Under the pieces are notes generated by a model. The model did no database searches. It had not been told where the DNA came from and saw only the letters and a program-made list of their open reading frames with translations. From a virus, in IMG/VR virus record IMGVR_UViG_3300042549_008195, positions 1-35,171 of that record: DNA of 35,171 nucleotides, one strand, 5' to 3'. How positions within the stretch are numbered: the stretch's first letter is position 1; each line of letters begins with the position of its first letter. Positions 2,431 through 28,363 of this stretch are shown piece by piece. Both the position numbers and the translations under genes were made by a program.

Positions 2431-2985
2431 TTAAGTCGAGTATGCCAGCTGCTCAATAGCCTTTGCTACTCTCGGGTCAAAGTTTTCCAGGTTCTTGTAT
2501 TTCTCCACTCGCTTTAAAATTTCAAAACACCGGATTAGCTGATAGGCGGCATGCGCGTCTTCGGGAGATTCGTAAGGACCGGCCGAAATTCCTGCGAATC
2601 TCCCGAAAAATTTATTTTTCACTTTAGCGACACCTAGAGGTAACGCTCTTTTCGTTTCATTTTTCACATTAGAGAATAGCGTATTTACCCATACCGGTAT
2701 AAAGACGCAGGTCTCTGGCCCGTAATGCTTATTACCCGGTAGCAGCACGTCTTTGTCAAGCACGTAGCCTTCCACGTAATTTTTAGAGAGCCATTCGTAA
2801 AAATTTGAAAACTTTAGCCACTCTTCGCAAACTGAGGCGTCCCTGTACGTCGGCTTCTCCTCGTGAGTTTTTCGGCGAAGGCTTCGAGTTAAAACACTGT
2901 GCCAAAGCTGGTACTCTTTACTCCCTTTTCTGGGGATATGAGGCATATCGTTCTCTCCTACCCCATAGCATTTTCTTTTAGGCAT
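2431..2985 (-). CDS. HNH-type homing endonuclease-like protein
   Basis: A 184-residue basic protein. The features YQLWHSVLTR, the W-x-x-F-x-x-F-x-x-W spacing, and LDKDVLLPGNKHYGPETCVFIP match a phage family with a modified HNH core, in which the LDKD and GNK..YGPETC segments take the place of the classical H and N positions. These behave as mobile, free-standing nucleases in many phages. The ATG at 2985 has AGGAGG four bases upstream. A second ATG at 2946 (MPHIPRKGSKEY) also has a good GGAG and gives a more typical N-terminus. It lies between the tRNA cluster and a terminator, a common landing place for such genes. Confidence 0.75.
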   Translation of the reverse strand: MPKRKCYGVGENDMPHIPRKGSKEYQLWHSVLTRSLRRKTHEEKPTYRDASVCEEWLKFSNFYEWLSKNYVEGYVLDKDVLLPGNKHYGPETCVFIPVWVNTLFSNVKNETKRALPLGVAKVKNKFFGRFAGISAGPYESPEDAHAAYQLIRCFEILKRVEKYKNLENFDPRVAKAIEQLAYST

Positions 2986-2996
2986 TTGGCCTCCTA

Positions 2997-3072
2997 AGAA
3001 AATGGGCAGCAAGCTTAATCCGGGTAAGAGAGGGGCACAGCGGCCTCCGGAAAAACTTGCTGCCCATTTTCT
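2997..3072. repeat. 17-bp perfect inverted repeat with a 42-base loop
   Basis: The arm at 2997-3013 is exactly complementary to the arm at 3056-3072 (AGAAAATGGGCAGCAAG and its reverse complement). One end touches the AGGAGG of the HNH-like gene. In RNA this would make a long hairpin between the tRNA array and the mRNA. It has no U-tract, so it is not a typical intrinsic terminator. It could be an RNA-processing site or a translation control element (inference). Confidence 0.85.
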
Positions 3073-3242: not shown

Positions 3243-3318
3243 TGGCGGCGAGGTCAGGACTCGAACCTGAAACGCACGGCTTTGGAGGCCGGCATGTTGC
3301 CAATTACACTACCTGGCC
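3243..3318 (-). tRNA. tRNA-Trp (CCA anticodon)
   Basis: The cloverleaf can be folded by hand. The acceptor is GGCCAGG with CCTCGCC (one C-C mismatch), the T arm is TCAGG-TTCGAGT-CCTGA, and the anticodon loop is CTCCAAA, giving CCA. The CCA tail is encoded. It is the last gene of a tandem array and is separated by five bases from tRNA-Ser. Confidence 0.9.
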
Positions 3319-3323
3319 ATGTG

Positions 3324-3410
3324 TGGCGGAAAGCACTGGAGTCGAACCAGAAACTGTTACATTCGATCCGTTTAGCAAACGGTCAAGCGTCCTCACGCTT
3401 ATTACTTTCC
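3324..3410 (-). tRNA. tRNA-Ser (GCT anticodon)
   Basis: An 87-base gene with acceptor GGAAAGT/GCTTTCC, anticodon loop TTGCTAA (GCT) and extra length matching the long variable arm of serine tRNAs. The CCA end is encoded. It sits three bases from the other serine tRNA. Confidence 0.9.
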
Positions 3411-3413
3411 AAT

Positions 3414-3499
3414 TGGCAGCGGGTGAAGGAATCGAACCCTTACCGTTTCCAGCAGCACGGTTTTCAAGACCGCTTGACGTCCATACGTCGCCACCCGCT
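3414..3499 (-). tRNA. tRNA-Ser (TGA anticodon)
   Basis: An 86-base gene. The acceptor AGCGGGT/ACCCGCT pairs perfectly. The anticodon loop CTTGAAA gives TGA, reading UCN serine codons. The long variable arm lies between the anticodon and T stems, and CCA is encoded. Together with the GCT isoacceptor the phage can supply tRNAs for both serine codon boxes. Confidence 0.9.
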
Positions 3500-3504
3500 A
3501 TTTG

Positions 3505-3582
3505 TGGCACAGGGTCTAGGATTCGAACCTAGGAAATACCGGGATCAAAACCCGGGGCGTTAGACCACTTCGCCAACCCTGC
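3505..3582 (-). tRNA. tRNA-Gln (TTG anticodon)
   Basis: The acceptor is GCAGGGT/ACCCTGT with one wobble pair. The anticodon stem CCGGG/CCCGG encloses the loop TTTTGAT, giving TTG. The T arm is CTAGG-TTCGAAT-CCTAG and the CCA is encoded. It is the first gene of the close-packed Gln-Ser-Ser-Trp array. Confidence 0.9.
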
Positions 3583-3823
3583 AAAACTGTACCTCACCGG
3601 TTCCGCTGCACCTGATTACCCTGCGCGTCAGGTCGATCGTGTGCAGCGTAGGCGTGTAGCGACGCCTCGTTTTAGTTCTGCCTTTCGGCCTTCCGATGAG
3701 CACCCCGTGAAGGGTAGCGACCCCTCTTTCGCCTAAGCTAGTTGATCATGTCGCGGGCAATTACTCCGCTAAACGAACTGTTCGTCATAGACGCCGATCC
3801 AACCGGCCCACAGAGTATAAATT
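3583..3823. other. non-coding spacer between tRNA-Asp and tRNA-Gln
   Basis: About 240 bases with no credible open frame and no foldable tRNA. It has a few short hairpins (for example around AGGCGTGTAGCGACGCCT) and TATACT right after tRNA-Asp on the minus strand. It could hold an unrecognised structured RNA or merely tRNA precursor spacer. I see nothing that decides this. Confidence 0.4.
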
Positions 3824-3900
3824 TGGCGGAACTGAAGGGTTTCGAACCCTCGGCCTCATGCGTGACAGGCATGCGCTCTAACCATCTGAGCTACAGCTCC
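3824..3900 (-). tRNA. tRNA-Asp (GTC anticodon)
   Basis: A 77-base cloverleaf. The acceptor is GGAGCTG/CAGTTCC with one G-T pair, the D arm is of the TAGCTCAGATGGTTAGAGC type, the anticodon loop is CTGTCAC (GTC), the T arm is GAGGG-TTCGAAA-CCCTT, and CCA is encoded. It stands apart from the other four tRNA genes. Confidence 0.93.
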
Positions 3901-4029: not shown

Positions 4030-4584
4030 CTAGCCACCGTTGCCGGACGTGTCAACTACATTTTTCAATTCGTTTTCCAGTCGGCCCAACCGGTACGCCT
4101 GCAACTCGGTCTCCCGGCTGCAATTGATCACCTGCGCCCTCTGCAATAGACGCCCGTGCTGCCCCTGCCACTTTCGGCACAGGGCCTCGTCCGGGTTCTT
4201 CGTGCCAATGTGGTCACCGTGCCAGTGCGTACCGCTGGTGACGGTGCAGTCGTACCCGAGCAGCAGCACACGTTCGGCGCCCAGTTTAAATGCCAGCTCG
4301 ATTGCGCGCAGGCCGCTGTTATACGGTCCGTAGCTCTCGTGCCAGTTCAGCCCATGCTTCGCCACTGCCTGTCGCGTGCAGCTCCAGCGCTGGCACGTCG
4401 TCGGCGCATCCGCCCCGTAGGTGTCCCACCACGCAAGGTCGCCGGCGTAGAGATGGTCGCACCACGGCGCCAGCTGCCACGAGTTGTTGACGGCTATCGT
4501 CGGCAGGCCCGACTGGCGCACGAGGTCGCAGTCGGCAGCAGTGAGGCTGGGGCCGGAAGCGATGCAGACGTAAGTAGTTGACAT
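4030..4584 (-). CDS. MptE/DUF115-like protein (6-hydroxymethylpterin diphosphokinase-like fold)
   Basis: A 184-residue protein. CIASGPSLTAADCDLVR, then PTIAVNNSWQLAPW, HLYAGDLAWWDTY and AERVLLLGYDC match the phage members of the DUF115/MptE-like superfamily, which have a Rossmann-like core with a GPSL phosphate loop and a D-x-W motif. The superfamily includes archaeal pterin diphosphokinase and bacterial flagellin-glycosylation (Maf) proteins. The role in phages is unknown. The ATG at 4584 has AAGGTG six bases upstream. That start codon lies inside the -35/palindrome element of the rightward promoter on the other strand, so the two divergent units share DNA. A later gene on this strand is glycosyltransferase-like, so a glycan role is possible (inference). 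Confidence 0.7.
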   Translation of the reverse strand: MSTTYVCIASGPSLTAADCDLVRQSGLPTIAVNNSWQLAPWCDHLYAGDLAWWDTYGADAPTTCQRWSCTRQAVAKHGLNWHESYGPYNSGLRAIELAFKLGAERVLLLGYDCTVTSGTHWHGDHIGTKNPDEALCRKWQGQHGRLLQRAQVINCSRETELQAYRLGRLENELKNVVDTSGNGG

Positions 4585-4606
4585 GCGTGTCACCTTGCGG
4601 AATACT
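4578..4606 (+). promoter_or_regulatory. palindromic-class promoter for the 4634 gene
   Basis: TTGACA at 4578-4583, a 17-base spacer, then AATACT at 4601-4606. The -35 lies in TGACATGCGTGTCA, one mismatch pair from a perfect palindrome. The start codon of the rightward gene is 27 bases past the -10. It is a member of the seven-site family described in the findings. Confidence 0.75.
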
Positions 4607-4633
4607 GGGCTCACTTTCAACGGAGGATACACC

Positions 4634-5149
4634 ATGGGTCTTGATATTTCGGCACACAGTAAAATGGTAGAAGCACCTGACGCAGCGCGTGAGGAAGACG
4701 GCGAACTGGTCGACTACGACGCATTCGTCGAATTTTACGATAATCCTGATTTCCCGGGACGCTTCGAGGGGCTGAAAACTTCAATGGCCTACACCGTGGG
4801 GGGCGACTCTGCCGGACTATCTACCGGCTATGGTCGGTATAGCGCTTGGCGCGAAGAACTGGCAAAGCTTGCTGGGTATCCCGCAGGTAAATACGAACAG
4901 TACGGCCAAGTTAAAGAAAGTCATTGCGTAGCGTGCTGGGGCGGCGCTACCGGCCCTTTCTCAGAACAAATCAACTTTAGCGATTGCGAAGGTACGATTG
5001 GGCCGGTTGTGTGTGCGAAATTGGCTAAAGATTACGCAGAATTTTCTGAAAAAGCCGAAGCTGTTGGCGGGTACTTCTGGGAAAAATACCAAGAGTGGAA
5101 AGTTTGTTTCGACCTCGGCGCTGATAATGGCGCAGTCCGGTTCCACTAA
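4634..5149 (+). CDS. rightward moron-like hypothetical protein
   Basis: A 171-residue acidic soluble protein beginning MGLDISAHSKMVEA. It has aromatic-rich segments (YDNPDFPGRF, STGYGRYSAWREELAKLAGY) and a conserved-looking HCVACWGGATGPFSEQINFSDCEGTIG region. I recognise a phage hypothetical family but no function. The ATG is placed by GGAGG seven bases upstream; a longer frame from 4583 has no SD. It is the only rightward gene between 0 and 34 kb. It has its own promoter, and its stop overlaps the stop of the convergent head-tail gene, with no terminator between them. This is the usual picture of an inserted moron that can be expressed apart from the late genes. Confidence 0.8.
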   Translation: MGLDISAHSKMVEAPDAAREEDGELVDYDAFVEFYDNPDFPGRFEGLKTSMAYTVGGDSAGLSTGYGRYSAWREELAKLAGYPAGKYEQYGQVKESHCVACWGGATGPFSEQINFSDCEGTIGPVVCAKLAKDYAEFSEKAEAVGGYFWEKYQEWKVCFDLGADNGAVRFH

Positions 5150-15046: not shown

Positions 15047-15082
15047 CTGTCGCGCCTCAAATCCTGCTCAAATCGCGCGCAA

Positions 15083-15109
15083 CAAAAAGCCCCGAGATGA
15101 TCGAGGCTC
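15083..15109 (-). terminator. rho-independent terminator after the HNH gene
   Basis: Minus-strand AGCCTCGA and TCGGGGCT pair with one mismatch around a 5-base loop and are followed by TTTTTGTT. It ends the leftward transcript coming from the 16.1 kb genes, so the terminase genes need their own start point or read-through. Confidence 0.8.
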
Positions 15110-15128
15110 TTGCCTTGCTTGAGTTGGT

Positions 15129-15458
15129 TCAGCCTCTGCGAGCTGCGCCTACGCCACCGTCTGCTGCGGTCTTGACGCTGTGGCAGGGCTTGCACAGGGC
15201 CTGATGGTTGGCCTTGTCCCAGAACTTGCCCTGGTCTCCACGGTGGTCCTCGATGTGGTCCACCACCGTTGCAGCGGTGACCTTGCCCAGCTTCTGGCAC
15301 ATCACGCACAACGGATTGCGCTCGAGGAAGACCAGCCTGTAGCGCTGCCACCTGCCACCGTAGCCGCGCTCTGCCGTGGTCTTGCCCTCGCGCCATGCAT
15401 CAGGGTTGAGCATCTGAACAGCTTGCGTGCTCACCTCCTTGGCGCGGGTGGGCTGCAT
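15129..15458 (-). CDS. HNH endonuclease next to terminase
   Basis: A 109-residue protein. GYGGRWQRYRLVFLERNPLC, VMCQKLGKVTAATVVDHI, NHQALCKPCHSVKT give the two CxxC zinc pairs and the H-N-H triad of the classical small HNH family (McrA-like). Such enzymes beside terminase genes take part in the specific cleavage that starts or ends packaging in HK97-like cos phages. The start is uncertain. ATG 15458 has no strong SD. The frame stays open to 15578 but overlaps the previous gene there. ATG 15413 inside the frame has AAGGAGGTG but 20 bases away. Confidence 0.87.
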   Translation of the reverse strand: MQPTRAKEVSTQAVQMLNPDAWREGKTTAERGYGGRWQRYRLVFLERNPLCVMCQKLGKVTAATVVDHIEDHRGDQGKFWDKANHQALCKPCHSVKTAADGGVGAARRG

Positions 15459-15471
15459 GGTGACACGGGAT

Positions 15472-15666
15472 TTAGCCAATGGGCCGCACCTCGACCTTGC
15501 CTTGCAGGTAGCACCTGCGCAGCTTGCCGTTCCTGATGACGTAGGGGTGGCGATGGCACAGCACTCGGCCTCGGACATCGTCTGCCCACACCACGCGCTG
15601 CACCAGCTGCCCGTTCACGTACACCTCCCGAGGCCCTTTGCCCTCCTGCACAGAATGCCTAGCCAT
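15472..15666 (-). CDS. hypothetical protein, 64 aa
   Basis: A small basic protein. MARHSVQEGKGPREVYVNGQ and the VVWADDVRGRVLCHRHPYVI centre, with LRRCYLQGKVEV near the end, suggest a compact beta-rich domain, perhaps nucleic-acid-binding. I know it only as a phage-type hypothetical. Its ATG overlaps the preceding stop (TGATG), supporting coupling. Confidence 0.6.
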   Translation of the reverse strand: MARHSVQEGKGPREVYVNGQLVQRVVWADDVRGRVLCHRHPYVIRNGKLRRCYLQGKVEVRPIG

Positions 15667-19313: not shown

Positions 19314-20102
19314 TCAGCGGTTGATGGCGGGTCGCCACTTGACGATATCGCCGACAGACTCTGGGCCGTGCGACCAGTTGTTAGATTCAGCGTTGTGCGG
19401 AGGATTTACAAAGCCGTCTCGCAATACCGTTTCAACAAGTCCCGCCGGCCGCATCGTTTCGTCACCGTTCCAGGTGTACCAGCCGTCAGCATCGCGAGGG
19501 CCGAAGGGATCGAGACGGATCAGTTCTTTTAGCCCGGCAGGCACGGCTTCAGGGTCACTACTGGCGAACGACCAGCAAATTTTCCCAAAACGCAACCAGC
19601 GGCCTGACATGTCGCAGACTTTGTAAAGGTTTCCGCCGCCGTCCCGATGCGTGGCTGAAAGGTTGGAATTGGCGATTCGCTCAGGATCTGTTTCTACCGC
19701 AGGTGCGCACCCGAATGCCTTCTCTATCGCGCAGCCGACGATGCCTTCCGGAAAAGACACTTCGCCCTTCAGGACCTTGTCCACGTGTTTCTTTACGATC
19801 GGGTCTGGCTCTTCCGCCGGCCGTCCACGTCGTTCCAGCTCAACCAGGCGCTTCCCGTAGAACTCGACTTTCTCCGCGTCGTACAACCCGTCCGTATAGC
19901 CGCGCTTGGACTTGCCGAGGCGAGCTGCAGCACGGCGCCAGAGTGCTTTAAACGCATTCGCTTCATTGGGCGTCATCTGCAACGCGTCGATGATGTCGAT
20001 GCACTCAGCGTCGTACGGGTCGGCGGTCTCACTGATCGGGTGCGTCACGCTGCAGGTGTAATAGCTGACGCTGCCGCCGCTGTATTCTGGCTGGTCGGTC
20101 AT
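19314..20102 (-). CDS. DUF3310-like hypothetical protein
   Basis: A 262-residue protein. DPYDAECIDIIDALQMTPNE, ANAFKALWRRAAARLGK and LYDAEKVEFYGKRLVELE resemble the DUF3310 helical unit of phages (I-D-x-I-x-A ... N-A-x-K-x-x-x-R-x-x-x-K). The rest is not recognised; it holds a WYTWNGDETMRPAGLVETVL segment. The function is unknown. It starts in an ATGA overlap and is the last gene before the terminator. Confidence 0.65.
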   Translation of the reverse strand: MTDQPEYSGGSVSYYTCSVTHPISETADPYDAECIDIIDALQMTPNEANAFKALWRRAAARLGKSKRGYTDGLYDAEKVEFYGKRLVELERRGRPAEEPDPIVKKHVDKVLKGEVSFPEGIVGCAIEKAFGCAPAVETDPERIANSNLSATHRDGGGNLYKVCDMSGRWLRFGKICWSFASSDPEAVPAGLKELIRLDPFGPRDADGWYTWNGDETMRPAGLVETVLRDGFVNPPHNAESNNWSHGPESVGDIVKWRPAINR

Positions 20103-20644
20103 GGCTGCACCTGCTTGCGGTAGCCGGCGTCGTAGAGCGCATAAAGGCCGTTCATGTAAGCCACCGGCTTCGAGTTCACGACAACCTGCATTTCCTTTAC
20201 CGCCGCTTCTCGCTCTTCTGCCGCGATCTGCTCAGCCGTTCGGATGGGCCGAAAAATAGGGTAGCCGTAGTTGTTGTGCTGCCGGTCGGAGTCGTACTCC
20301 CCTTTCCGTTCGCCTCCAATAAAGCGCACCACAGCGCGATCTTCATCGTGGGCAATGATTCGAACCGGGACATACTCACCCGTGGTGCTGCTCCACAGTG
20401 TTTCGCACTCCAGGCCCACTGGCGGTAGTCCTTCGCCGGCCCAGTCTCTTAGAGAATGCTTGAAGCGAGAAAGCAGAGAATCTTTTGACTCGCCAGACCA
20501 GACAGTCCATTCGCTCATCCCGGGAAATGCGTAATAAGCTTCAGCTTCACGAAAAATTGCGAAGCATTCTGCTGTTCCTGCTTGATTCGGGAAGTGTACT
20601 TCTGCCCCTTCCGGCGCCTTGCTCCAATCGATCTGTTCGTTCAT
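20099..20644 (-). CDS. phage hypothetical protein of the WSKAPEG type
   Basis: A 181-residue protein. It begins MNEQIDWSKAPEGAEVHFPN, a start shared by many phage accessory proteins of unknown role. The centre (LWSSTTGEYVPVRIIAHDED, RAVVRFIGGERKGEYDSD) looks like a small beta domain, followed by a charged helix (AEQIAAEEREAAVKEMQVVV). GGTGGGG precedes the ATG. Start and stop overlap neighbouring genes. Confidence 0.65.
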   Translation of the reverse strand: MNEQIDWSKAPEGAEVHFPNQAGTAECFAIFREAEAYYAFPGMSEWTVWSGESKDSLLSRFKHSLRDWAGEGLPPVGLECETLWSSTTGEYVPVRIIAHDEDRAVVRFIGGERKGEYDSDRQHNNYGYPIFRPIRTAEQIAAEEREAAVKEMQVVVNSKPVAYMNGLYALYDAGYRKQVQP

Positions 20645-20847
20645 CAGAACCCCACCTTGCTATTTGTGATTTTATCGATCATGCGCGTCAGCTCGTCGCA
20701 TTTATCACGCAGTGCCCGAGCCTTTGCCTGTCGTTCTTCAGGAGTCGAGTTCAGCAACTCGTAAATGTCGTCGCTGACCAGAATTGTATTGGCCGGAAGC
20801 ATGCTGCTGCGGAATATCTGGATACCGCCAATGATGGCTTTGCTCAT
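20644..20847 (-). CDS. small helical hypothetical protein, 67 aa
   Basis: It has a short hydrophobic N-terminus (MSKAIIGGIQIFRSSMLPAN) followed by a charged coil (TPEERQAKARALRDKCDELT). There is no family call. It is linked to both neighbours by overlapping start and stop codons, so it is part of the operon. Confidence 0.6.
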   Translation of the reverse strand: MSKAIIGGIQIFRSSMLPANTILVSDDIYELLNSTPEERQAKARALRDKCDELTRMIDKITNSKVGF

Positions 20848-21407
20848 GGCGCGACACTCCCGCCAGCCGCTTCGATGGCCGCCACTGCATCAGCGCGAGA
20901 AATCAGAGGGTTTTCGCCGCCAGCTCCAGGACCATACATGCGACGTGCCAGCGAATCGCCACGAGGCAGCGTGACCACGAATGACGATTTACCGTCCCGA
21001 TACCCTTCTGATGCAGCCGTGCCCATGTCGACCGCTGTATATCCCACGGGAGCAGTGCCGAACTCGTCGACAATCAGAACGTCCGCACGCTTGCCTTGCA
21101 GCTCGCCCTTCGGCCAGCAGCAACTGACGCACTCGGAACGCCCGTGGCCCGGGCAGGAGGCCGCACTCAACGGCTCGTAACTGAGCACGCAAATTTCTTC
21201 CGGCAGGCCGTACCCTGTTTGAATGTGGCTGATCCTGCGGTGCATTTCTTGCCCCGTCGGGTTGCCGGTTTCGTCAATCAAGCGCAGCTCGACAGTGTCG
21301 CCGACCTGGAAATTCCGGTCAGAACAGTTTCGAACCTCGCCGGTTTTGGCTCCGGAAGCCAAGGCAGCAAATGGCCCGGATTTGATCTTGAGCTTATGCG
21401 TGTTCAT
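20844..21407 (-). CDS. DUF3850/ASCH-like protein
   Basis: A 187-residue protein. The N-terminal 80 residues (HKLKIKSGPFAALASGAKTG, EVRNCSDRNFQVGDTVELRL, ISHIQTGYGLPEEICVLSYE) match DUF3850, an ASCH/PUA-like fold tied to RNA or modified-nucleotide recognition. The rest is unassigned and has a cysteine cluster (CPGHGRSECVSCCWP), possibly zinc-binding. It may act on nucleic acid or on modified bases (inference). ATG 21407 has GGAG nine bases before it; the longer TTG start at 21410 is not needed. Confidence 0.7.
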   Translation of the reverse strand: MNTHKLKIKSGPFAALASGAKTGEVRNCSDRNFQVGDTVELRLIDETGNPTGQEMHRRISHIQTGYGLPEEICVLSYEPLSAASCPGHGRSECVSCCWPKGELQGKRADVLIVDEFGTAPVGYTAVDMGTAASEGYRDGKSSFVVTLPRGDSLARRMYGPGAGGENPLISRADAVAAIEAAGGSVAP

Positions 21408-21666
21408 CAATCAACACTCCCACATGGGTATCGAATTTCTCGGATTTGTACAGCGCAACAGTGAGGTACTTGCGCGCCCCACGTCGCATTGCTTCCAGTT
21501 TGTCCCCGCTGGCCCACCCGACCGGTGCGCACACTGCAACAGCTTGCGCGGCTTCCAGTTGCTCCAGCCGTGCCAGTAGCTGCGCGAGGTCAACGGTCGG
21601 CACGTCCAGGCTACGATCGCCGCGCTGTTGCGCCCGGTGCAGGTCGGCCAGCAGGAACGGGCTCAC
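21394..21666 (-). CDS. hypothetical protein, 90 aa
   Basis: A helical protein with a leucine/alanine-rich segment (LAQLLARLEQLEAAQAVAV) and a C-terminal part ending YKSEKFDTHVGVLIDEHA. It starts with GTG overlapping the stop of the NAMPT-like gene (GTGA), and ends inside the next gene by 14 bases. There is no family call. Confidence 0.55.
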   Translation of the reverse strand: MSPFLLADLHRAQQRGDRSLDVPTVDLAQLLARLEQLEAAQAVAVCAPVGWASGDKLEAMRRGARKYLTVALYKSEKFDTHVGVLIDEHA

Positions 21667-23579
21667 GCTGAGGCCAACCGTGCGCGGATCTCGGCCAGAG
21701 TGGTCGGATTCGTCAGCACGCCATCACAGAACATCTGTTTCAGTTCACCGGAACCGGTGGCCAGGTCTTCAGGGAGCAGCGGTTGTTCCTGGCGCAGCAC
21801 GAAGTTCCCGTCGACGCGATCGACTACCAGAAAACCTTTGGCCGACTTCTTGGCCGTTTCGCCTTCGGTCATCGGGTCTTTGTACAGCTCGATCAACTCA
21901 CCGTTAACCTGGCAGCAAGTGGCTTTGATGGCCATACCGAACGTGTCTCGGGTGTTGTACTGGTACGTGAAGCTCCCGATACCCAGAACCACGTTGCACG
22001 AGGCGAAACCCTTAGCTGCCAATCGGCGCATGATCTCTTGAGTCCGTTTTACTGTGATCGAGTCGCCGTAGATCAGACCGATGTGCTCGTCCAGTACGCG
22101 GAACCCCTTATCCGTCACGGTGCCGCCGAAGGTTTCCCAGAGCAGCTGCACTGCGCCTTTTTCGACTGGAGACAGCGTATGGCCCTCGATGCGGTACCCG
22201 CGATCGTAGTTACCGATTTCAACACGTTCAACGACAATGCCCCGTTCGCCCAAGTAAGCTACGCACTGTTTCATCACTTCAAAGTACGCAACTTCCTCAT
22301 GTTTAAAATGGGACGGGAAACCGGCCGAGTTAAAAAGCCGTAACGGCGCCGACAGAACTCGCCATTCGTCATCGGACCCAACCAATGCGTCCAGCTCGGT
22401 CCATGTTTTGTTGTAGCTTTTGCCCACTACTCGAGTCGCGCGGAACACCCGTTCGCCGTCTTTGTAGAACACAACGTCCTGGCGTTTCTCGAAAGCGGCA
22501 TCGCGGCCCCCAAGGGTCAGCACTTCAACACCGCAAATCACTTCAACCGGGTCACCGGAATCGGGGCGCACCACGGTTTTGCAAAGCCCAGTCTCGTCTT
22601 TGCCGCGATTCATGATTGCGGCGTAAACGGCAGGGTTAGGCAGAACGTCAGTTAGCACGCCCCAGAAGTTGAAGCTGTCGCAGACCAGTGCGACGCCGCC
22701 GGTCGAGTTTGTTTCGGTCAATACCCGCAGAATGAACTGACGCTCTGCTTCCAATCGGGCGATCTGGAAGTCATCTCCGGGCACACGCGACGACTGCAGA
22801 TTGCTGAGGATATTGGCAGTTGCCACAGAGTGCTCAGTAGCGGTCAGGCTGCAGGCGAGGAATTCATGCTCCGCGTCGGCGCCATAGTAGTCCTCTGCGT
22901 AATCCATGGCGGGCATGGTGTCACTGCCCATGAAGTTGCACAGGTGCGGAAAACCAGAGCGTGCGCCGTCTTCCAGTCCACCGACGCCGCGGTATGAGAA
23001 GTCGTGGGCTTGAACGCTAACGAAGTCCTTTGGCGATCCGGTTCGCTCGGCCCAAGCTTCAAGAGTGCGGCGGTACTCGTAGGAAATCGTGGCGTTGGTG
23101 ACCATTTTCCAGAGCATGGCCGACATGCTGGTTTCCAGGTAATTCACCAGCCAGAAGAACTCCGGAATGGTGTTGTAAATCGTGTAGAACGGCACGTTCA
23201 TGTTGACCCGCGAGCCTTCCGGCAAAGCCAGTACAGAGATCGGCAGGTACCCCAGGTCGTGCAGCGCGGCGAAACCGTCGGACGGGATTTTCCCTTCGCC
23301 CAGGTAGTGACGCATGCGACGCTCGTAGCGGGCGATCACTTGGGCTTTTGGTTTGCTGAAGAACGATTCGTCCCACAGCTCCTTGATTTCAGTCATGACG
23401 CCTTGGATACCGACCCAGACGACACGGTTGTCCCACAGGTCGCTGCAGGATGGGCTTTTGAGAAACAGACGGTCTGCACGTGCGGTCATATTCCCGTAAA
23501 GCAACTGTGTGCCTTTTGGGTACAGAGGACGGTGGCCAGGTTTGTAACCGTCGGCAACGTGTGGCGCGAATAATTTCAT
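21663..23579 (-). CDS. nadV: nicotinamide phosphoribosyltransferase-like enzyme (NAMPT/NadV, possible Namat)
   Basis: A 638-residue protein, longer than typical NAMPT (about 490), with the extra length in loops. Conserved active-site segments are visible: AHDFSYRGV (the HDFxxRG loop), NFMGSDTMPA (with the aspartate that binds nicotinamide), TATEHSVATA (the phosphohistidine-type H), and VVRPDSGDP (PRPP-binding). The N-terminus (ADGYKPGHRPLYPKGTQ) is typical too. NAMPT makes NMN from nicotinamide and PRPP. In the phage NARP1 pathway a relative joins nicotinamide to ADP-ribose-pyrophosphate to give NAD+. It follows the PRPP-synthetase-like gene by five bases. ATG 23579 is chosen; the frame before it has no SD. 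Confidence 0.9.
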   Translation of the reverse strand: MKLFAPHVADGYKPGHRPLYPKGTQLLYGNMTARADRLFLKSPSCSDLWDNRVVWVGIQGVMTEIKELWDESFFSKPKAQVIARYERRMRHYLGEGKIPSDGFAALHDLGYLPISVLALPEGSRVNMNVPFYTIYNTIPEFFWLVNYLETSMSAMLWKMVTNATISYEYRRTLEAWAERTGSPKDFVSVQAHDFSYRGVGGLEDGARSGFPHLCNFMGSDTMPAMDYAEDYYGADAEHEFLACSLTATEHSVATANILSNLQSSRVPGDDFQIARLEAERQFILRVLTETNSTGGVALVCDSFNFWGVLTDVLPNPAVYAAIMNRGKDETGLCKTVVRPDSGDPVEVICGVEVLTLGGRDAAFEKRQDVVFYKDGERVFRATRVVGKSYNKTWTELDALVGSDDEWRVLSAPLRLFNSAGFPSHFKHEEVAYFEVMKQCVAYLGERGIVVERVEIGNYDRGYRIEGHTLSPVEKGAVQLLWETFGGTVTDKGFRVLDEHIGLIYGDSITVKRTQEIMRRLAAKGFASCNVVLGIGSFTYQYNTRDTFGMAIKATCCQVNGELIELYKDPMTEGETAKKSAKGFLVVDRVDGNFVLRQEQPLLPEDLATGSGELKQMFCDGVLTNPTTLAEIRARLASA

Positions 23580-23584
23580 GGGTT

Positions 23585-24409
23585 TTAGATCTCGAAGAAA
23601 GAGAATTGCGGATCGACGATACCGTCGGGTCTGGTGTTGCCTTTTGCTGCGTGGTGAAACGAGTTCGTGGTGTCGATGCTGTCGTAAATGGCCGCAACTT
23701 CGTCGTAGCCTTTGCTGAAAATACCGTGGGTTACCCACAACCCCAGGCCAGCCGGGTTCTGCTGGCGCAGCGCGCGGCCCAACTCTATGAAGGTGCGGCC
23801 GCCGTCAAAGATGTCGTCCACAACGAGCAGGTATTTGCCGCCGAGATCGCCGGGCACTTCTACGTGGCTGATGTTGCCCGTTGCGGTATCGCGAACTTTG
23901 CTGCAGCACACGACGCCATCTGCGCCGAGGTTGCGTGCTGCCTCGTGCACCTTTTTCACAGCGCCAGCGTCCGGAGCCACCAATGTGACTTTGTTCCAGG
24001 CCAGCGCCGGAAGTGCCCGGGCTAAGACTTCGGCGACCGGAACGCTGCGGCAGTTTCGAATGAGCGCGGAGCCCACGTCGCTATGACAGTCCATAACTTC
24101 AACGCGGCGAAAGCCCAGAGAGTTGATCAGGTCGGCCATGACTGACACCGCCAAGGGTTCGCCGGGATTGCATACTCGATCCTGCCGGGCGTACGGCAGA
24201 TACGGGATAGCCAGTTCCAACTGCACCAGAGGATCACGGCGGCGCAAGGCGTCAACGATCAGCGCAAGGTTAAAGATGGTCGATGTTTCGTCCCCGTGGA
24301 CTTTTATTTCGATCACGGGGAATCGCGGCAGCCCTTCCGGGATACGGGGAGCCAGTTCCCCGCCAGGAAAGGTGAAGTATTCGACCGGTGCTCCGTTCAG
24401 GTAAATCAT
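23585..24409 (-). CDS. prs: PRPP-synthetase-like enzyme (Prs, possible Adps)
   Basis: A 274-residue protein, shorter than housekeeping Prs (about 315). Motifs: ELAIPYLPYARQDRVCNPGE (the RQDR...GEP ATP/metal region), VMDCHSDVG, VAPDAGAVKK, CSKVRDTATG (in place of the KRR flexible loop) and VVDDIFDGGRTF (the PRPP loop). Canonical Prs pyrophosphorylates ribose-5-phosphate. In the NARP1 defence-countering pathway a Prs relative (Adps) makes ADP-ribose-pyrophosphate instead. It is coupled to the membrane-protein gene by an ATGA overlap. The phosphate-loop differences from housekeeping enzymes do not by themselves tell which substrate is used. Confidence 0.9.
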   Translation of the reverse strand: MIYLNGAPVEYFTFPGGELAPRIPEGLPRFPVIEIKVHGDETSTIFNLALIVDALRRRDPLVQLELAIPYLPYARQDRVCNPGEPLAVSVMADLINSLGFRRVEVMDCHSDVGSALIRNCRSVPVAEVLARALPALAWNKVTLVAPDAGAVKKVHEAARNLGADGVVCCSKVRDTATGNISHVEVPGDLGGKYLLVVDDIFDGGRTFIELGRALRQQNPAGLGLWVTHGIFSKGYDEVAAIYDSIDTTNSFHHAAKGNTRPDGIVDPQFSFFEI

Positions 24410-24822
24410 GGCTGCACCGCCGCAGCAAACACCCATACCTGCTGGCGTTTGTCACCCAGATCAACCCACACGACGCCCGGTGCTTCAACCGTCACTTCGA
24501 AATCGTGGTACGTGTAGACGCAGCCCGGAACCGCTGGCTCGAACATGGTCTGGTTCTGCTGCTCAGCCCATGTCGCGGCATCGACGCAGGCGAGGCTACC
24601 GGCCGGCAGAGTGTCGGCGTGTGCCGATGGCTGCCACAGTAGCGCACCGAGGAACGCCAACCACCCGAGCAGCGCAAGGCGGCGATAAGCGGTGGTCCAG
24701 CGTTGGGCCGTTTTCAGCTCACGTTTCAGGAGGGCGCAGCGGTCGCGGTAGTCGTCGCGGGTCAGGTTGACCGACTCCGGAGTCCATGGTTCGAATTCGC
24801 CAGTAGTAATTGATCGTTTCAT
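24406..24822 (-). CDS. single-span membrane protein leading the NAD+ operon
   Basis: A 138-residue protein. It has a charged cytoplasmic N-terminus of about 60 residues (TRDDYRDRCALLKRELKTAQ), one membrane helix (LALLGWLAFLGALLW, ending AHA as a possible signal-peptidase site), and a periplasmic tail with two cysteines (LACVDAATWAEQ, GCVYTYHDFEVTV). No family is recognised. GGAG lies seven bases before the ATG and a palindromic-class promoter lies 37 bases upstream. As the first gene of the NAD+ operon it may have a linked role, but that is only context. Confidence 0.7.
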   Translation of the reverse strand: MKRSITTGEFEPWTPESVNLTRDDYRDRCALLKRELKTAQRWTTAYRRLALLGWLAFLGALLWQPSAHADTLPAGSLACVDAATWAEQQNQTMFEPAVPGCVYTYHDFEVTVEAPGVVWVDLGDKRQQVWVFAAAVQP

Positions 24823-24859
24823 TTCAGTTCTCCGTCCCGGGACATCCGGCGTAGGTTTG

Positions 24860-24888
24860 ACTCTAGCCTTAAGTGACACGCGTGTCAA
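24860..24888 (-). promoter_or_regulatory. palindromic-class promoter of the NAD+ operon
   Basis: TTGACA (24883-24888), a 17-base spacer, TAGAGT (24860-24865), minus strand. The -35 is part of the perfect 14-bp palindrome TGACACGCGTGTCA. The start codon is 37 bases further on. It sits at the end of the upstream HTH gene, just past its stop. Confidence 0.82.
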
Positions 24889-24889
24889 C

Positions 24890-25240
24890 TTACTTGCGAA
24901 TGACGATTTCCATCGCCGTGATCTCACGGTTCAGCACTACCAGTGCTTCCGCTTGTTCGCGGCGTTCCTTGTCCGGGTTGCGCGGATCGACCACGAACTC
25001 TGCGATAGCGCGGCGGCGTTTGCGCATTTCTTGGGTCATTGCTCGCAGCACTGGCAGATGCGGCTTCAGCGTGCGGTACATGTGCAGCTTGTTGGTGCGC
25101 TTGAGCGAAACCCCGGCTTTGCGCAGGCGGTACCCGACCATTTGTTGACTGCACCCGAGACGGTTAGCGATCTGCTGTTCGGTAAGCTGCTCATCCAGGT
25201 ACAGCGCAACAATTGTTTCTGTGGCGATAGGCAGGGTCAT
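24890..25240 (-). CDS. HTH DNA-binding protein
   Basis: A 116-residue protein. The motif YLDEQLTEQQIANRLGCSQ with QMVGYRLRKAGVSLKRTN is a typical helix-turn-helix (resolvase/sigma-type) in the first third. A basic helix and an acidic C-terminus follow. It ends exactly beside the NAD+ operon promoter, so local control is possible. The start is fixed by GAGG seven bases before ATG 25240 and by an ATGA overlap with the previous gene. Confidence 0.7.
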   Translation of the reverse strand: MTLPIATETIVALYLDEQLTEQQIANRLGCSQQMVGYRLRKAGVSLKRTNKLHMYRTLKPHLPVLRAMTQEMRKRRRAIAEFVVDPRNPDKERREQAEALVVLNREITAMEIVIRK

Positions 25241-27519: not shown

Positions 27520-27883
27520 TCGACACCTCCCCAGGCAGCGTCCACATGTCGCCGGTGGCAGGGTCGACCATCAAGCCCGATACGACGCTGATGCAGAACC
27601 CAACCCAGTACCAGCCGGTCGTGTGCGATTCCAGTTCCACCGTCTCACCGGTGCCATATGCCACCTGATACGTCTGCCCGTCGAAGAACCCGGCCGCTGC
27701 ATCAAGCGTCACGTGCTCCGGCGTGGTGCCGGTATGCACACGTTGTCCGTCTTCGTCTGTGACCGTGTAACTGGTGCCGGGCGTAGCCGAGGTGACGGTC
27801 ACGTCGGTGTAACGGCTGTTCATCACGGTGGAGCAGCCGGTGAGGACGGTACTGAGTGCGAGTGCTACGAGAAGGCGTTTCAT
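27509..27883 (-). CDS. predicted lipoprotein
   Basis: A 124-residue protein. MKRLLVALALSTVLTGCSTV is a signal with lipobox LTGC, lipidated at Cys17. The mature part has a PEGA-like beta repeat (VTVTSATPGTSYTVTDEDGQ, GTTPEHVTLDAAAGFFDGQT) and a membrane-like segment near the C-terminus (GWYWVGFCISVVSGLMVDP), as in YceK/YidQ-type lipoproteins. A phage lipoprotein in the envelope may act in exclusion of other phages or in envelope modification (inference). It is coupled to the next lipoprotein by ATGA. Confidence 0.78.
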   Translation of the reverse strand: MKRLLVALALSTVLTGCSTVMNSRYTDVTVTSATPGTSYTVTDEDGQRVHTGTTPEHVTLDAAAGFFDGQTYQVAYGTGETVELESHTTGWYWVGFCISVVSGLMVDPATGDMWTLPGEVSNVR

Positions 27884-28293
27884 TTCGGCACCACTGCGTC
27901 TTTGAGAGCTTCGGTGCTGCCCTTGAAGTCTACGTCCGGCAGGATAGTTTGCGGTTTGAAGATCACGCGGTAGTGGTAAACGCTCACGTCCGCGCCGACC
28001 AGTTGCTCGCTGAAGTACGTCACGTTGTCCGACAGGCCGAGGCTATGTTTCTTGTACTCGGCAGGCCCCGTCTTGCAGGTTACGTCCAGTTTGCCGGCTG
28101 TGCCTGCATCGAAGCTGCAACGGCCCTCGATCGACAACATGTAGCCGCCGGTTATGCCGTTGTAAAAGACGATGCGTCGGCTGATCTCGAAGTTATCAGC
28201 GGCTTGACTCAGGTTGCGCGATGCGACCCGGGCGTCGTTGTCACAGCCGGCCAAGGCGGCAAGGATTGCTGCAGTGATCAGAATGCGTTTCAT
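27880..28293 (-). CDS. predicted lipoprotein with an unknown domain
   Basis: A 137-residue protein. MKRILITAAILAALAGCDND has lipobox LAGC. The mature part (SRNLSQAADNFEISRRIVFY, then GYMLSIEGRCSFDAGTAGKL) resembles the beta-site-specific recombination-type phage proteins of unknown role found in Gram-negative phages. ATG 28293 has AGGAG seven bases upstream. It is paired with a second lipoprotein gene. Confidence 0.75.
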   Translation of the reverse strand: MKRILITAAILAALAGCDNDARVASRNLSQAADNFEISRRIVFYNGITGGYMLSIEGRCSFDAGTAGKLDVTCKTGPAEYKKHSLGLSDNVTYFSEQLVGADVSVYHYRVIFKPQTILPDVDFKGSTEALKDAVVPK

Positions 28294-28363
28294 GGTGGTT
28301 CTCCTGTGCGTTGGTACTGGCAAGGCCCCAGTAAAGGGGCTTGAAGTGGACGGGAATTCCCGG

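Follow-up and report, generated by a model that had tools for sequence, protein, structure and literature searches.

The window analysed here, the whole 35,171-base stretch of a virus record, encodes two adjacent genes that very probably form a NARP1 module, a counter-defence pathway that would rebuild NAD+ from ADP-ribose and nicotinamide, with substrates, reaction and anti-defence role assigned by analogy with characterised homologues. As judged by sequence and predicted structure, the pair carries every feature of NARP1 that these approaches can address, and it is a clear further example of this known counter-defence rather than a new kind of system. The first enzyme, Adps, would convert ADP-ribose and ATP into ADPR-PP and AMP by moving a pyrophosphate to C1 of the ribose, and the second, Namat, would combine ADPR-PP with nicotinamide to yield NAD+ and PPi; NAD+ would be reached in two steps, with no need for an NMN adenylyltransferase. 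During infection, both products of NADase-type defences (TIR, SIR2 and SEFIR effectors) would be recycled by this route, and the cell would presumably survive for as long as phage replication requires. The features of the locus are listed in Table 1.

Table 1. Window and features of the putative NARP1 locus
Feature	Position	Strand	Remarks
Window	35,171 bases		virus record, probably incomplete (fragment)
5' flanking gene	24406..24927	-	homologue touches homologue of 20099-20644 in L354, L355
Adps-type gene (putative ADP-ribose 1-pyrophosphokinase; Prs fold)	23585..24409	-	274 aa; loop VVDDIFDGGRTF at aa 196-207
Namat-type gene (putative nicotinamide ADP-ribosyltransferase; NAMPT fold)	21663..23579	-	638 aa
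Insertion in Namat (~130 residues, about aa 344-475)	22155..22550	-	between VRPDSGDP and KGA..LWETFGG
Selectivity-clamp helix motif GSFTYQYNTRD (adenine-binding signature)	21945..21977	-	aa 535-545 of Namat
Small ORF (90 aa), inserted block	21394..21666	-	overlaps Namat stop (GTGA); no family match
DUF3850 domain protein, inserted block	20844..21410	-	PF12961, E 4.6e-17
Small ORF (67 aa), inserted block	20644..20847	-	absent between flanking homologues in L354/L355
3' flanking gene (phrog_3483)	20099..20644	-	family match; homologue in L354, L355

In agreement with the original prediction, which had been made from the sequence alone, a Prs-like and a NAMPT-like gene lie next to each other on the minus strand and the active-site motifs quoted for them (including AHDFSYRGV and VRPDSGDP) are present. 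Adps is the upstream gene and is separated from Namat by 5 bases (TAA AACCC ATG), while the Adps start overlaps the stop of the gene upstream (ATGA) and the Namat stop overlaps the start of the next reading frame (GTGA), an arrangement that indicates a single, tightly packed operon. The start of Adps was placed at ATG 24409 (a longer alternative begins at ATG 24436) and that of Namat at ATG 23579, the listed 691-aa frame merely adding an in-frame upstream GTG extension. The family matches of both frames are far beyond chance level, with PRK09198 at 440.7 bits (cut-off 405) and phrog_448 at E 1.5e-171 for the Namat-type protein, and TIGR01251 at 131 bits (cut-off 113) and phrog_619 at E 2.4e-80 for the Adps-type protein. 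One further profile of 547 positions, phrog_12872, is matched in opposite parts by the window Adps and Namat, which suggests that fused Adps–Namat proteins may exist in some phages.

Namat can be told from NAMPT by a selectivity-clamp helix, GSX(phi)X(phi)X(phi)TRD, whose two aromatic residues engage the adenine of ADPR-PP, and by a stacking residue in a loop (PMC12774641). The helix of the window protein, GSFTYQYNTRD, fits this published consensus exactly and is letter-identical to that of SPbetaL1 Namat, F537 and Y541 being the clamp aromatics. The motif is absent from the five phage NAMPTs compared, in which the first adenine-stacking position is occupied by G, G, G, A and G and Gly also replaces Ser391; where NAMPT-type proteins have G391, a small residue at 392 and no adenine aromatics, the window reads S536, F537 and Y541. 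The stacking residue of the loop, for which Arg, Lys or Tyr is expected, is R37 (aligned to SPbetaL1 Arg40) and is weak as lone evidence because phage NAMPTs also carry K or R at this position. With respect to the residues that contact NAD+ (SPbetaL1 numbering), 19 of 20 are identical to those of SPbetaL1 Namat, and the twentieth, S507 in place of Ala362, is the usual one, since 58 of the 59 other Namat-type proteins have Ser there. The NAMPT-like core is complete and comprises the phosphorylatable H250, the nicotinamide pocket (F194, R197 and D220) and R338 as the equivalent of R306. In a maximum-likelihood tree, the five NAMPTs stand apart from all 61 rows of Namat type, the window included, with 100/100 support, the exact root being unsure given the long branches on the NAMPT side. 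The AlphaFold2 model of the window Namat, which was built from a new alignment of the collected loci, reached a pLDDT of 92.8, and its ranking against PDB folds placed Namat 9w5x best (E 6e-51), followed by HdNadV (2e-41) and mammalian NAMPT (from 2e-35).

For Adps, no structure is known (PMC12774641), and the top matches of a fold search with its AF2 model (pLDDT 95) all belonged to the Prs family, for which reason Adps and Prs were compared at the level of sequence. The comparison set consisted of 59 sequences of the Adps type (the window protein and proteins of phages and bacteria) and 11 housekeeping Prs, all bacterial (ten from genomes that also carry Adps, together with that of E. coli), and a column was regarded as diagnostic when it was at least 80 % fixed in both groups with a differing residue. 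At each of the 14 such columns the window has the residue typical of Adps (G16, L66, P72, S110, V112, A115, A150, T177, G178, I200, G203, F207, L224 and G229), and the shared catalytic residues (R75-Q76-D77-R78, H109, K171, R173 and D198-D199) are intact. The loop of Prs that holds the 5'-phosphate has the form DT(G/A)(G/N)T, which was found in 11/11 housekeeping Prs, whereas the window reads DGGRT at this site, within the Adps loop DGGRTF. In the corresponding tree, Adps (including the window) is split from the 11 Prs at 100/100, with bootstrapping not fully settled; the window Adps has no starred closest relatives there, a point that was counted against the NARP1 reading. The TIGR01251 score of the window protein (131 bits) lies among those of chromosomal Adps (98–139 bits), the housekeeping Prs of the same genomes scoring 348–419 bits.

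These residues bear on ordinary PRPP-based salvage, in which the Prs-like enzyme would make PRPP from ribose-5-phosphate, the NAMPT-like enzyme would join this with nicotinamide to give NMN and a host adenylyltransferase would finish NAD+. Both proteins do share the fold and catalytic core of Prs and NAMPT, Namat retains the ability to form NMN from PRPP in vitro (PMC12774641), and HdNadV, which also belongs to the wider family, has been crystallised in complex with NMN, so that family kinship by itself is no proof of ADPR-PP use. Nevertheless, salvage from PRPP is very improbable for this pair, as the aromatics F537 and Y541 have no counterpart in NAMPT or HdNadV (GAQTYQRNTRD), Prs-specific residues were found at 0/14 columns of the Prs-like protein, the HdNadV plasmid is without an Adps-like gene, and no adenylyltransferase was found in the window; it was rejected on the residues and trees, with housekeeping Prs and phage NAMPTs as controls. 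By analogy with its homologue, the window Namat is likely to use PRPP in a side reaction. The original prediction, which had favoured NARP1 over salvage through NMN, is therefore upheld by the clamp motif, the 14 Adps columns, the DGGRTF loop, both trees and the similarity to 9w5x, and the structure comparison it had proposed placed the Namat model nearest to a Namat and the Adps model in the Prs fold. It had also noted that no NMN adenylyltransferase is visible, and indeed no CTP_transf_like domain (the fold of that enzyme) was detected in the probably incomplete window by a search with positive controls in 14 genomes. However, its use of this absence in favour of NARP1 is a weak argument, given that the host possesses such an enzyme itself and that the record covers only part of the genome.

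HdNadV itself is the NadV protein of the Haemophilus ducreyi plasmid pNAD1 (L363, 3828-5315). By sequence score it is nearer to Namat than to mammalian NAMPT, its clamp aromatics are missing and no Adps-like neighbour gene was found on pNAD1; NadV is possibly an intermediate between the two enzyme types.

Directly after the ribose-binding RPDSGD loop, the window Namat contains the long insertion listed in Table 1, which extends the RPDS-to-YGDS spacing to 162 residues, compared with 41 in the SPbetaL1 Namat sequence used, 49–51 in other short Namats, 126 in the FelixO1-type homologue and 116–169 in the nearest relatives of the window protein. Its position could point to decayed cargo, with frames that are open and an enzyme that is inactive, for example through blockage of the active site by the insertion. 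Such decay is extremely improbable, given that all catalytic residues are intact in both proteins, that no frameshift was found, that the folds are confident and that two relatives of the same clade (L110 and L022) have a spacer of similar length (169). Most of the insertion is folded by AF2, its 10-residue blocks ranging from 68 to 93 in pLDDT. That the insertion confers an extra property on this Namat clade (such as regulation, channelling from Adps or altered donor choice), which would define a functional subclass of NARP1, is a tentative and rather unlikely proposal.

Between its flanking genes, the window holds a block consisting of Adps, Namat, the 90-aa frame, the DUF3850 protein and the 67-aa frame. 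In L354 and L355, two phages related to the window in its replication half, the flanking homologues (15075-15548 and 15545-16081 in L354; 14689-15120 and 15117-15587 in L355) overlap each other by four bases, forming a near-exact empty site, which implies that the block was either gained as cargo or cleanly lost in the relatives. The sequence comparison suggests that the module is a horizontally acquired accessory, clean loss in the relatives being the alternative. No match to Namat or Adps was obtained in 23 structural relatives, nor to Namat in 7 replication-module relatives, many of these records being fragments, and the same type of search does recover the window's own gene; the possibility that the module belongs to the phage core genome was rejected on these results. 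Conversely, ten IMG/VR contigs and two jumbo phages in which relatives of the module occur were checked for the window's terminase and gave no match, in a search without a positive control of its own.

The complete phage is probably a mosaic siphophage of 42–49 kb, which the module would have joined as accessory cargo. Its structural half is akin to Pseudomonas phages, among them IME307 and PAJU2, as well as to IMG/VR phages whose terminases are 82–100 % identical, several of these measuring 40–48 kb, and its replication half is akin to a different set, namely L354-L357 (contigs of 42–49 kb) and Pseudomonas phage MR14. The closest relatives switch entirely between the two halves, with the boundary near 16.1–16.5 kb of the window. 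Halves with different relatives are frequent among temperate-type phages, and this pattern points to a mosaic phage, a chimeric contig being less likely. A chimera at ~16 kb would leave the NARP1 finding unaffected, since both genes that flank the module are matched in the same replication-half relatives.

The enzymology of NARP1 might also serve a different biological role, which is the only point at issue here: the pair could provide a working route from ADPR to NAD+ for nucleotide or energy metabolism of the phage, or for the repair of NAD+ that the phage has used, instead of a dedicated counter-defence. Complete Adps and Namat pairs are common in bacterial chromosomes, where they occur beside a separate Prs, and one bacterial pair is active (PMC12774641), implying that the pathway is not only anti-defence. 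For the window, a metabolic role is nonetheless unlikely, as the pair is missing from closely related phages and has the placement of cargo, separating genes that otherwise adjoin, which fits a conditional benefit better than core metabolism, and as phage NARP1, where tested, rescues cells from NADase defences (PMC12774641).

Among characterised systems, NARP1 of the Bacillus phage SPbetaL1 (Namat structures 9w5x and 9w5w) resembles the window pair in its two-gene operon, fold, GSFTYQYNTRD motif and catalytic and NAD+-contacting residues. As differences, the two Namats are only 34 % identical over the fold alignment, that of the window is ~150 residues longer, chiefly through one insertion, and the host phages are unrelated. 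NARP1 of mycobacteriophage DyoEdafos, whose Adps and Namat convert ADPR into NAD+ in vitro, carries the comparable signatures DICDGGGTF (Adps) and GSFTYQHNTRD (Namat); it differs in having a small gene, gp78, between the pair and a RyDEP gene that acts with the pair. As for a companion gene that would supply ADPR, the window yielded no relative of gp78 and none of a phage macrodomain protein, and Pfam scans of it showed no RyR domain. The closest named phage homologues are the Namats of the Pseudomonas jumbo phages Phabio and Viktualia (57–58 % identical), which also have an Adps-like gene upstream and whose pair is annotated as Prs and nicotinamide phosphoribosyltransferase; these phages differ from the window in their size (309–323 kb), in giving no match to its terminase and in a Namat spacing of 86–87 residues as against 162. 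NARP2-type pathways, which consist of NAMPT and NMN adenylyltransferase, share the enzyme superfamily at the nicotinamide step. In true-NAMPT phages of this type, such as Caulobacter phage Ccr29 and Burkholderia phage BcepSauron, an adenylyltransferase gene lies next door, no Adps-like gene was found nearby and the Namat clamp motif is absent, and their NAMPTs fall on the other side of the 100/100 split.

In an IMG/VR scan for Namat, 71 viral loci had the strict motif, and in 66 of these an Adps-like gene closely precedes Namat, in the same orientation and at most 2.5 kb away, a proportion that is not an unbiased frequency because the loci were picked by similarity. Named phages with the Namat motif include Phabio, Viktualia, PAK_P1, ventosus, a FelixO1-like phage, a kayvirus, ICP1 and DyoEdafos, and 0/60 phage records sampled across all Namat and NAMPT matches were under 68 kb. 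Namat-type genes were also observed in many bacterial genomes (L181-L260; Flavobacterium, Acinetobacter, Achromobacter, Chromobacterium and others), most of which have an Adps-like gene in the same region, and a separate housekeeping Prs was present in the ten that were checked. In 41 of the 162 viral loci, among which there are some duplicates, a macrodomain gene (at 6206-6670 in L002, for example) accompanies NARP1 within the sequence retrieved, about 5–8 kb to each side, and macrodomain proteins near NARP1 could release ADP-ribose that feeds Adps.

The window places NARP1 in a small mosaic siphophage, with relatives of 40–49 kb on both sides, and the near-exact empty site shows the pathway moving as cargo, or its clean loss in relatives. 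The 14-position signature that separates Adps from Prs, combined with the published Namat clamp, provides a simple sequence test of NARP1 against ordinary salvage, which may be applied to the many phage pairs annotated as 'ribose-phosphate pyrophosphokinase' and 'nicotinamide phosphoribosyltransferase'. The setting itself (a small mosaic phage, an empty site and a long insertion) is useful, though unsurprising to a specialist.

Elsewhere in the window, four tRNA genes (Trp-CCA, Ser-TGA, Gln-TTG and Asp-GTC) lie on the minus strand at 3243-3900 within the structural-gene region, between 2431-3012 and 4030-4635, and the minus-strand frame at 27880-28323 strongly matches the uncharacterised phage family VG64 (PF25682, E 1.8e-53).
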